Part shown: positions 26,418 through 29,197 of the stretch, piece by piece | Layout of the letters: every line of letters starts with the position of its first letter | How positions within the stretch are numbered: position 1 is the stretch's first letter | NCBI RefSeq assembly: GCF_030453185.1 | Contig: NZ_JAKDKW010000016.1 | Coordinates: 1-38,480, forward strand | Direction: 5' to 3' | Length of the DNA stretch: 38,480 nucleotides | Source: Yaniella sp. | GTDB taxonomy: Bacteria > Actinomycetota > Actinomycetes > Actinomycetales > Micrococcaceae | Notes under the pieces: generated by a model | The model's database searches: none | Told to the model about the DNA's origin: nothing | Seen by the model: the letters and a program-made list of their open reading frames with translations, nothing else | Position numbers and translations under genes: made by a program

Positions 26418-28391
26418 ATGATACTCGTCGTTGACAATCACGGGTTCACGACCCGCATCCTGACGCATCAGCTCGGGGCGGTACACCTTGTCACCGCTGC
26501 CGAGCTGCTTGCTGTCGATCTGGATAACTACACGCACGTAGTAATCGGCCACGGTAGCGCAGCCGTCGACTTGCAACCGCTCCACGAGGCACCGAATCTC
26601 CCAGTGCTGGCAATTGGGGCAGGCTATCAACATCTTGCCGCGCTCTACGGACACACTGAAACCACCAGCGCCAAGCCGGTCTATGGGCAGCCCGTGACGC
26701 ACCATCACTGCGGAGCCGAGCTCTTTGCGGGCCTGCCAGTCGACGTCAAGCTCATCAGCTACCATGCCTGGCGGTTGCACCGGATGGATACTGACCGTTT
26801 CGCTATTCACGCTACCGGCGCCGACGACGCCGTGCTGGCCTTTCGCGTTCAGGGCACCAACCACTGGGGGCTCCATGGGGATCCGGCCGCTCTACAATCA
26901 ATGGTGGGGAACGCCGTCATCAACAATTTCTTAGCACTGGCGCCCCTCGCACCCACGCCGCCGGAGCCCATTTCCCCGACAACTCGGCGTCGTCAGCGCT
27001 ACGAGGTTTTTACCCGGTCCATAGTCGGCGAACTCGATACATCCGCCACGTTTGCCACGTTGCAAGAGGACACTTCTGCAGCCTTCTGGTTAGATTCCGC
27101 CTCAGCTCATCGGGGTCAGGGCGACCTCACGGTCATGGGAACCAATAACGGCGAACTGTCACAAACGATTCGCTGGAACGTCACGACGAACGCGCTTGAC
27201 GTGGTCGCTGGCAGTGATGCGCACCAGCTGACCGGTGATGTGTTGGACTACCTCGAGGAACACCTGTGGGAACCAACTGCAGTGGTGGATTTTGACGGCT
27301 TCACCGGAGGCTGGGTTGGCTACCTAGGGTACGAAGCCAAACAAGCCACGGTTCCAGGGCATCAGAATCGGTGGGAAGCGACTACACCGGACGCCTACTG
27401 GATCCAACCACAAACCTTTCTGCGGTACGACCACCGCGAACGCTCCACGACCCTGTTTTCGTATCACGATCCGGCGCTGCTCGATACGTTGGAAGCCGCC
27501 CTGGTCTTCGAATCCAGCACTGTATCTGGCGTGCCAGAGCGCGCAGATATCGCTGGGCAGTGGCGTTTATCAGCAGCAGAGTACGAGGACCGGGTAGGCC
27601 GCATCCAAGAACTGTTGCATGCCGGAACCGCCGCAGGGATTTGCCTGACTGATACGTTCAGCATGGATGCTCGCGGTCTCGACGGGTTGGAGCTGTACGG
27701 TCGATTGCGGGCCAATAATCCGGCACCGTATGCCGGCTACCTGCGATTCAACACCTTCGACGACAGCCTCGAGGTACTTTCAGCGTCGCCGGAAAAATAT
27801 CTGAGCATTGACGCCGCCGGCACGGTTGAATCAAAACCGATCAAAGGTACCGTGGCCCGTAGCTCCGACCCGAAGCAGGACGCCGAAGTTGCCGCTTCTA
27901 TGGCGGCGGATACCAAAATACAATCCGAGAACCTCATGATCACTGACCTTTTACGTGACGACCTCGCAACCGTCACCGTTCCGACAACGGTGCAGGTGCC
28001 CAAACTCATGGCCGTGGAATCATTTGCGACAGTGCATCAACTCGTGACCACCGTGACCGGTCAATTGCTGCCAGGTACCTCAGCGGTCGACGCGTTGAAA
28101 GCAGTTTTTCCAGGTGGCTCCATGACCGGAGCGCCCAAGAACATTAGCTTGGAAACATTGGATGCCCTAGAAGCCGGTCCTCGAGGCATTTATTCAGGGG
28201 CCATGGGATGGCTTGGTCATCGCAATACAGCTGAACTCAACGTGGTGATCCGAACAATCATCATTGATAACGAACAGCTGAGCATCGGGGCCGGAGGCGC
28301 AGTCGTGGTGGACTCTGACCCAGTTGCAGAAGAGCAAGAAAAACATTTGAAGGCTCAAGCCCTAATGCACAGTATCGCGGAGCAGCTATGA
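26418..28391 (+). CDS. pabB: Aminodeoxychorismate synthase: PabB fused to a degenerate PabA domain
   Basis: A 657-residue fusion. Residues 1 to about 175 have the fold order of a class I glutaminase (VVDNHGFTTRILTHQLG, then LPVLAIGAGYQ and SYHAWRL). The catalytic machinery is gone, however. Where GICLGHQ is expected it has AIGAGYQ, so the cysteine is Gly67. SPGPG is replaced by GHGSA, and FHPES by LHGDP with His153 kept. Residues from about 195 are a normal PabB: GGWVGYLGYE, SASPEKYL, PIKGT with Lys476 (TrpE has Ala there), FPGGSMTGAPK, GPRGIYSGAMGWL and IGAGGAVVVDSDP. It should make 4-amino-4-deoxychorismate for folate, using ammonia or a separate PabA. Its stop overlaps pabC as ATGA. Confidence 0.9.
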   Translation: MILVVDNHGFTTRILTHQLGAVHLVTAAELLAVDLDNYTHVVIGHGSAAVDLQPLHEAPNLPVLAIGAGYQHLAALYGHTETTSAKPVYGQPVTHHHCGAELFAGLPVDVKLISYHAWRLHRMDTDRFAIHATGADDAVLAFRVQGTNHWGLHGDPAALQSMVGNAVINNFLALAPLAPTPPEPISPTTRRRQRYEVFTRSIVGELDTSATFATLQEDTSAAFWLDSASAHRGQGDLTVMGTNNGELSQTIRWNVTTNALDVVAGSDAHQLTGDVLDYLEEHLWEPTAVVDFDGFTGGWVGYLGYEAKQATVPGHQNRWEATTPDAYWIQPQTFLRYDHRERSTTLFSYHDPALLDTLEAALVFESSTVSGVPERADIAGQWRLSAAEYEDRVGRIQELLHAGTAAGICLTDTFSMDARGLDGLELYGRLRANNPAPYAGYLRFNTFDDSLEVLSASPEKYLSIDAAGTVESKPIKGTVARSSDPKQDAEVAASMAADTKIQSENLMITDLLRDDLATVTVPTTVQVPKLMAVESFATVHQLVTTVTGQLLPGTSAVDALKAVFPGGSMTGAPKNISLETLDALEAGPRGIYSGAMGWLGHRNTAELNVVIRTIIIDNEQLSIGAGGAVVVDSDPVAEEQEKHLKAQALMHSIAEQL

Positions 28392-29197
28392 AAGCGTTTC
28401 CGCAGCATTTCGGATGGCAAGACGGTAATTTTGTTGCTATAGCGCCGCCTGAATCACCCGAGATTCTAGTGGCAGATTCATGGCGGGTGCACCAGGGGAC
28501 CACCTGGGGGCTCCAGGATCATGTGCAGCGGTTCATGGAAGGCATTGAACAACAGGAGCTGGATCCCGCAGTGTCGCGAGATGTCACTGTAGAGAAATTT
28601 GAGAAAGCCTTGCAGCGAAAACTCTCGAGAATTTCGCGCGCCACCCCGGGCGTGGATCTGTTTCCACGCATCAGCGTGGAAACCCATCGTGGGTCGTGGC
28701 GTATTGTCCTGTTGGTGCGGCCGGCTCCACCACCACGAAAGACAACGAGTTTATGGCTCCCGGGCTATACCGACCCGCGCACCAAGCCCACGGTCAAAGG
28801 ACCGGACATTCACCTGATGCGTGGGCTAGTGGAGGAAGCACCCACCGATGATGTTGTCTTACATGACGGAACCAACGTGCATGAGACCACCACCGGCGCA
28901 CTGCTCCTATGGCAAACACCAGAGCACCTGGTGTTGTGCGAGGCAACGCAGCAGCTTGCTTCGATCTCCGCGCAACGCATCGCCAACCACGCGCGATCAC
29001 ACAATATCTTTGTGACCACCCGTTCGGTGACCATTCAAGAGCTGGCCTCCGGGGAGTACCCGGTGTGGTTTTCGAATACGCTGCACGGCATCTCCCCGGT
29101 GAGCAGCGTCGGCAGTGCTACCGGAGAAACACAGGTTAAAACCCACCAGGCTGCGGCACAGTGGCAGACAGCCTGGTGGGCGATGTTCGCTGTATAA
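28388..29197 (+). CDS. pabC: Aminodeoxychorismate lyase-like class IV aminotransferase
   Basis: A 269-residue fold-type IV PLP enzyme. The lysine that should hold PLP is Lys137 in PTVKGPDIHLMRGLVEEA, and the conserved glutamate is Glu166 in DGTNVHETTTGALLLW. The protein is divergent from branched-chain aminotransferases. Its gene overlaps the PabB gene by four bases, which supports the lyase role that releases 4-aminobenzoate and pyruvate. The C-terminus ends WQTAWWAMFAV. A D-amino acid or branched-chain aminotransferase is possible from motifs alone. Confidence 0.87.
   Translation: MKAFPQHFGWQDGNFVAIAPPESPEILVADSWRVHQGTTWGLQDHVQRFMEGIEQQELDPAVSRDVTVEKFEKALQRKLSRISRATPGVDLFPRISVETHRGSWRIVLLVRPAPPPRKTTSLWLPGYTDPRTKPTVKGPDIHLMRGLVEEAPTDDVVLHDGTNVHETTTGALLLWQTPEHLVLCEATQQLASISAQRIANHARSHNIFVTTRSVTIQELASGEYPVWFSNTLHGISPVSSVGSATGETQVKTHQAAAQWQTAWWAMFAV

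Follow-up and report, generated by a model that had tools for sequence, protein, structure and literature searches.

A glutaminase domain without its catalytic triad in the PabA-PabB fusion of Yaniella, and a likely genus-wide change from glutamine to free ammonia

INTRODUCTION

Class I amidotransferases hydrolyze glutamine by means of a Cys-His-Glu triad and pass the ammonia to a synthetase. The window analyzed here, a stretch of 38,480 nucleotides from a Yaniella sp. contig (NZ_JAKDKW010000016.1), contains an open reading frame of 657 amino acids with an ATG start (positions 26418 to 28391; all coordinates in the window are on the forward strand) in which a glutaminase-like domain (PabA) is fused to aminodeoxychorismate synthase component I (PabB) and the triad of the former is gone. 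This raises the question of which nitrogen donor PabB uses, and why a domain without its active center has been kept. A first-pass annotation from the sequence alone had suggested a structural or regulatory relic, with nitrogen coming either from free ammonia or from a second glutaminase. We addressed the question by analyzing the fusion, the other glutamine amidotransferases of the same genus (GTDB Yaniella, which includes Enteractinococcus; nine genomes), and their counterparts in other genera of the family.

RESULTS

The glutaminase domain of PabAB

Fold comparison, sequence alignment, phmmer, and a subthreshold PF00117 match all assigned residues 1 to 175 (positions 26418 to 26942) to the class I glutaminases, as initially proposed. 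The predicted domain matched 6qur with a VIA-align Z score of 22.0 (2.4 Å, 177 aligned residues, model residues 1 to 178), TrpG (1qdl) with 20.9, and E. coli PabA (8rp0) with 20.5 (model residues 1 to 174); the model of the full protein had a mean pLDDT of 46.0, being poor beyond the N-terminal domain, and only residues 1 to 175 were used. By phmmer, residues 1 to 172 aligned with E. coli PabA (E value of 1.2e-6). The PF00117 (GATase) profile gave 20.2 bits for the domain alone and 16.5 bits for the whole protein, without reaching the cutoff of 22.8, which was passed by five of the eight PabAB orthologs of the genus, the copy of this genome not being among them.

The catalytic residues of E. 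coli PabA are Cys79, His168, and Glu170, according to passages of PMC7617670. To read these sites, the domain was aligned with nine intact relatives from other genera of the family, three fused PabABs and six TrpGs. The nucleophile motif GVCLG[LH]Q has become AIGAGYQ, with Gly67 (codon ggg, positions 26616 to 26618) at the site of Cys79, and the SPGPG loop has been replaced by GHGSA (residues 44 to 48, positions 26547 to 26561). The predicted structure agrees with the alignment, placing Gly67 between a strand (63 to 66) and a helix (69 to 76), where the nucleophile elbow would be. Loss of the last motif, also recognized at first sight, holds in a different register, since the His-Pro-Glu triplet falls on Asp155-Pro156-Ala157 (positions 26880 to 26888) and not on LHG; in this ungapped alignment, His153 pairs with the Gln of VQFHPES, and both the catalytic His (now Asp155) and Glu (now Ala157) are gone. 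On the other hand, His116 of a YH motif is invariant in the eight fusions of the genus and aligns with the His of RYHSL in E. coli PabA, which we take to be His128. The latter is described as an active-site His in passages of PMC7617670. Altogether, the PabA half is very likely a pseudo-glutaminase that has kept the fold and lost glutamine hydrolysis.

The PabB half (residues 200 to 657 and the stop codon, positions 27015 to 28391) keeps its signatures, in agreement with the first-pass annotation: PF00425 (chorismate binding) and PF04715 scored 252.3 and 47.4 bits, and Lys476 of PIKGT (positions 27843 to 27845) is invariant in 8/8 genomes. The top-scoring NCBIfam model for the fusion was TIGR00553, with 287.7 bits on PabB for a curated cutoff of 328.4, and none of the 25 models listed passed its own cutoff. 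The next open reading frame (positions 28388 to 29197), whose start overlaps the pabAB stop by four bases, is a pabC-like class IV aminotransferase (PF01063, 59.6 bits) and a candidate aminodeoxychorismate lyase, for which the NCBIfam lyase models scored far under their cutoffs.

Distribution of the altered fusion

A survey of relatives found the same Cys-less fusion in eight of the nine genomes of the genus, the ninth being only 71% complete. Relatives with 62 to 80% identity over nearly the whole protein were Yaniella halotolerans, two “Candidatus Yaniella” MAGs, Enteractinococcus helveticum, E. coprophilus, and a Micrococcaceae MAG. All eight fusions have Gly at position 67, encoded by all four Gly codons, and none has the HPE triplet, which excludes chance or the sequencing error that had been considered a possible explanation.

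Fusions from three other genera (g2, g15, and g17) retain GVCLG[HL]Q. The one from g17, the nearest sampled genus, has intact GVCLGLQ and YHPES motifs and is 46% identical over residues 25 to 652. In an unrooted tree of CarA and GuaA from 16 genomes (eight of the nine from the genus plus eight others), g17 and the genus split off together with a support of 0.994, and the genus alone with 1.000, while with midpoint rooting the genus stands by itself on its long branch. As g17 keeps the Cys and groups with the genus, apart from the other seven genomes, the change would be placed on the stem of Yaniella/Enteractinococcus; this placement rests on that split in an unrooted tree.

The same loss in CarA, PurQ, and GuaA

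A profile scan of the genome carrying the fusion (97.4% complete) gave four class I GATase genes, coding for CarA, a C26/PuuD-like hydrolase, HisH, and GuaA. Across the genus, CarA has Gly in place of the Cys (GIGLGHQ) and Tyr in place of the catalytic His (YYPE) in 8/8 copies, the SxGPG loop and the rest of GLGHQ being retained, so that CarA might still bind glutamine. In PurQ (with the register taken from T. maritima PurQ), GLGNGFQ or GVGNGFQ replaces GxCNGFQ in the nine copies, one of which ends at a contig edge, and HPE has changed to SPE in seven and to NPE in one of the eight full-length copies. GuaA has Gly (7/9) or Ser (2/9) at the nucleophile site and lacks HPE in all nine; the copy of this genome reads AVGGGFL and WNPG, and the SGGPSS loop of GuaA is rewritten in the alignment, like the SPGPG loop of PabA. 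As controls, we used eight genomes from eight other genera of the family. GxCxGxQ was kept at 30 out of 30 GATase loci read (a count that leaves out 25 further listed rows), and CarA and GuaA, aligned site by site, have the Cys in 8/8 genomes each.

Not all amidotransferases are affected. HisH retains Cys and HPE in the eight copies of the genus, and PurF its N-terminal Cys in the eight copies found, with an altered residue preceding the conserved Asn-Gly. Genes of the glutamine synthetase family appeared in 9/9 genomes, with three to five matches each. Glutamine use has therefore not been abolished; glutamine is still made, and used in places. The synthetase partners CarB, PurL, and the synthetase domain of GuaA are full length and above the curated cutoffs (one copy of each), and no internal stop codon interrupts the genes for PabAB, CarA, and GuaA. 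TrpE (one copy) is also full length, with 617.7 bits for its best model and a curated cutoff of 693 that was not reached, and by inspection its gene lies beside trpC, trpB, and trpA.

The NCBIfam “glutamine-hydrolyzing” models pass their curated cutoffs on CarA (L001) and GuaA (L004) despite the absent catalytic Cys, an annotation trap by which automatic annotation can hide the loss. Among class II enzymes, six AsnB-like proteins from four genomes have, at the N-terminal Cys site (register by eye), Cys (L125 and L127), Ser (L126, L134, and L150), or Thr (L128), and glutaminase centers of this class may be eroding too. A blocked ammonia tunnel in CarA was considered and rejected: the genus has Pro at the position that we take to be Gly293 of E. 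coli, but this Pro is not diagnostic, as the residue is Pro or Ile in the other genera as well. Gly293 of E. coli CarA is replaced by Gln318 in CPS1, according to passages of PMC4655335.

Two other kinds of nitrogen-related loci were seen. At G000:C56:6692-13439, and at like loci of other genomes, a GlxB-like class II amidotransferase that has kept its Cys lies between two glutamine-synthetase-like genes, an arrangement that may belong to a methylamine or ethanolamine nitrogen pathway. G006:C1:1306986-1319729 and G007:C117:15045-28102 each have three C26/PuuD-like hydrolases near a glutamine-synthetase-like gene, resembling the gamma-glutamyl polyamine pathway.

Partner genes that were not found

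A separate, active PabA or TrpG, which the dead domain had been suspected to hold, was absent from this genome in the profile scan for class I GATases. Nor was there any TrpG among the 47 PF00117 matches of the nine genomes of the genus, assigned by length, motif, and neighbors to CarA (nine, one of them a fragment), GuaA (nine), HisH (eight), PabAB (five), and stand-alone hydrolase-like proteins or fragments (16), although this profile missed three of the eight dead PabA domains (G000, G002, and G005) and could miss an equally degenerate TrpG. No trpG was seen beside trpE, and seven proteins from the pknB-trpG neighborhood of g17 (L196) had no match with an E value of <1e-3 in the 80 kb at the start and end of the G005 contig.

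GlmS was not found in the nine genomes either. There were six SIS-domain matches in four of them, in open reading frames of only 297 to 308 amino acids, and the four that were read are all RpiR-like. Of the 26 PF13522 matches, the 19 read were by inspection PurF, GlxB-like, AsnB-like, or EgtC-like proteins. Eight genomes, all but the 71% complete one, have a NagB-like gene that carries the LDEY and NGHIGFNE motifs; glucosamine-6-phosphate deaminase models were the best for the copy scored, under their curated cutoffs. In three species read (L177, L178, and L180), nagB adjoins what by inspection are energy-coupling-factor-like transporter genes (ATPase and transmembrane). The profiles for PF00117, SIS, PF13522, and PF06418 matched in 14/14 named control genomes and PF01182 in 9/14.

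CTP synthase (PyrG, PF06418) was undetected in all nine genomes of the genus (G000 to G008), and we considered it as a further part of the pattern. It was also undetected, however, in eight further genomes from five other genera, including the one g17 genome and 4/4 of g12, which brings the family draw to 14 of 120 genomes, six of them from the Yaniella genus. The idea was therefore rejected, and we regard the absence as an older or separate event that does not count as support.

Selection on the silenced domains

Median dN/dS values (Nei-Gojobori) were 0.147 for the PabA domain versus 0.098 for PabB, 0.119 for the GATase domain of GuaA versus 0.032 for its synthetase, 0.110 for CarA (the whole protein and not the GATase domain alone), and 0.093 for PurQ (eight of nine sequences), with dS saturated in many pairs of these genes. 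The value for HisH was 0.058, from six of eight sequences with finite dS in four of 15 pairs. The dead domains are thus clearly maintained under purifying selection, with a dN/dS of about 0.1, even if those of PabA and GuaA change faster than their own synthetase halves. Structural support of the synthetase would be the simplest reason for their upkeep.

DISCUSSION

Free ammonia as the probable nitrogen donor

Since CarA, PurQ, and GuaA have lost the same Cys and neither TrpG nor GlmS was found, the explanation should be lineage-wide rather than specific to pABA synthesis. In general, PabB and TrpE enzymes accept ammonia. GMP synthetases take it from outside in vitro (passages of PMC10526850). 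Without the Cys there is no known glutamine route, and with GMP synthetases and CPS1 taking ammonia, ammonia-dependent synthesis is the best explanation; judging from the residues lost, free ammonia is likely the donor of the affected enzymes. We put at roughly 0.78 the probability that the PabA half is a pseudo-glutaminase and PabB works with free ammonia, as one case of a glutamine-to-ammonia switch on the stem of the genus. Of the original interpretation, the dead center, the intact synthase half, and the likely use of free ammonia have stood, whereas the separate PabA has found no support and the view of one odd enzyme has to be widened.

Under this explanation, PabB would make aminodeoxychorismate from cytosolic free ammonia, and the synthesis of pyrimidines, purines, GMP, pABA, tryptophan, and perhaps amino sugars would run on the same donor. 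CarA, PurQ, GuaA, and PabA would have been silenced by the loss of the nucleophile and kept, probably, for their structural contacts with the synthetase, while partners that were dispensable or replaceable would have gone altogether: TrpG, and GlmS, for which a NagB-like enzyme working in the aminating direction could substitute. We lean, with less assurance, toward the broad version in which Yaniella and Enteractinococcus, free-living bacteria, largely gave up glutamine as the source of nitrogen in making nucleotides, folate, tryptophan, and amino sugars, the dead subunits serving as scaffolds and NagB standing in for GlmS.

The replacement of GlmS by NagB is the weakest step of the ammonia explanation. 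Akkermansia muciniphila likewise lacks GlmS and has NagB, but in passages of PMC5902328 its enzyme, with a Km for NH4 of about 41 mM, does not carry out the amination under physiological conditions. It does not take over from GlmS in vivo, and GlcNAc is required. Given this precedent, the amino-sugar step may be an auxotrophy instead.

A likely setting would be a high intracellular ammonia concentration derived from life in alkaline, ammonia-rich material. Enteractinococcus grows from pH 7 to 11, and alkaline pH shifts more ammonia to the permeant NH3 form. One member of Enteractinococcus was obtained by selecting for tolerance to ammonia, an ammonia-rich habitat being documented for this one species only. 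Such a habitat is a plausible cause, one that fits the pattern without proving it.

Alternative explanations

The alternative raised by the first-pass annotation, a separate active glutaminase feeding ammonia in trans to the silenced complexes, could draw on HisH and on several C26/PuuD-like hydrolases with an intact Cys in the genus, as well as on the glutamine-synthetase-family genes. We find it quite unlikely, because no PabA/TrpG-like subunit turned up in this genome or in the genus, because the dead domain would still fill the place of the partner in each complex, and because one loose enzyme serving at least four unrelated synthetases would in effect be a supply of free ammonia. A regulatory role for the dead domains, for example as glutamine-binding sensors gating the synthetase, with ammonia as the donor, would agree with the purifying selection (dN/dS medians of 0.093 to 0.147), the retention of most glutamine-site loops in CarA, and the invariant His116 of PabA. 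However, the rewritten loops of PabA and GuaA argue against glutamine binding in those two proteins, and structural contacts alone can account for the selection, so that we consider regulation unlikely as well.

Loss of the same residue from several Cys enzymes could also reflect resistance to glutamine-analogue antibiotics (DON, azaserine, or acivicin) that alkylate the catalytic Cys, and acivicin and DON do irreversibly inhibit the GATase of GMP synthetase (passages of PMC10526850). Yet HisH and PurF, which are Cys amidotransferases, have kept theirs, and no gene for TrpG or GlmS was found, which makes resistance very unlikely as the cause. It is hardly credible that the pathways are simply decaying in a genus that scavenges pABA, bases, and tryptophan: although GlmS was not found and PyrG was undetected, the synthetase halves are strongly conserved (mean identity of 0.90 in the genus for that of GuaA), the CarB and PurL tested are complete and score above their cutoffs, trpE sits with trpC, trpB, and trpA, and the open reading frames for PabAB, CarA, and GuaA are uninterrupted.

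Comparison with known systems

The closest parallel to the ammonia switch is the vertebrate mitochondrial CPS1, in which the glutaminase fold is also kept and the nucleophile Cys replaced (Ser294 in the human enzyme, which takes free ammonia from the environment according to passages of PMC4655335) and which the CarA of this genome matches in a PDB sequence search. CPS1 is known to use free ammonia, which for the Yaniella enzymes is our reading of the residues. CPS1 is also one enzyme of the urea cycle, whereas the Yaniella genus has at least four biosynthetic enzymes changed, mostly to Gly, and two further partner genes not found. Aminodeoxychorismate synthase of Streptomyces venezuelae (8hx6 to 8hx9) has the same domain order and N-terminal fold as the fusion, with an intact GVCLG[HL]Q where the Yaniella protein lacks the triad. 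Single-domain NAD synthetases are bacterial amidating enzymes that work with free ammonia in vivo, as those of Yaniella would; they are, however, likely an ancestral form without glutaminase (both points from passages of PMC3376133), while in Yaniella the glutaminase is present and its center lost. Each enzyme taken alone is thus CPS1-like, and the concerted pattern in four enzymes is the new part. Within the PMC literature, outside of which most subscription papers lie, we found no paper on such losses in Yaniella or on a multienzyme loss of this kind.

The usual explanation for glutaminase subunits and ammonia tunnels is that cells contain little free ammonia. If the switch proposed here is true, at least four enzymes of this genus would have abandoned the hydrolysis of glutamine in parallel, and related genera could serve as controls. 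It would then become testable which level of ammonia makes glutamine dispensable and what roles glutaminase subunits have beyond ammonia supply.
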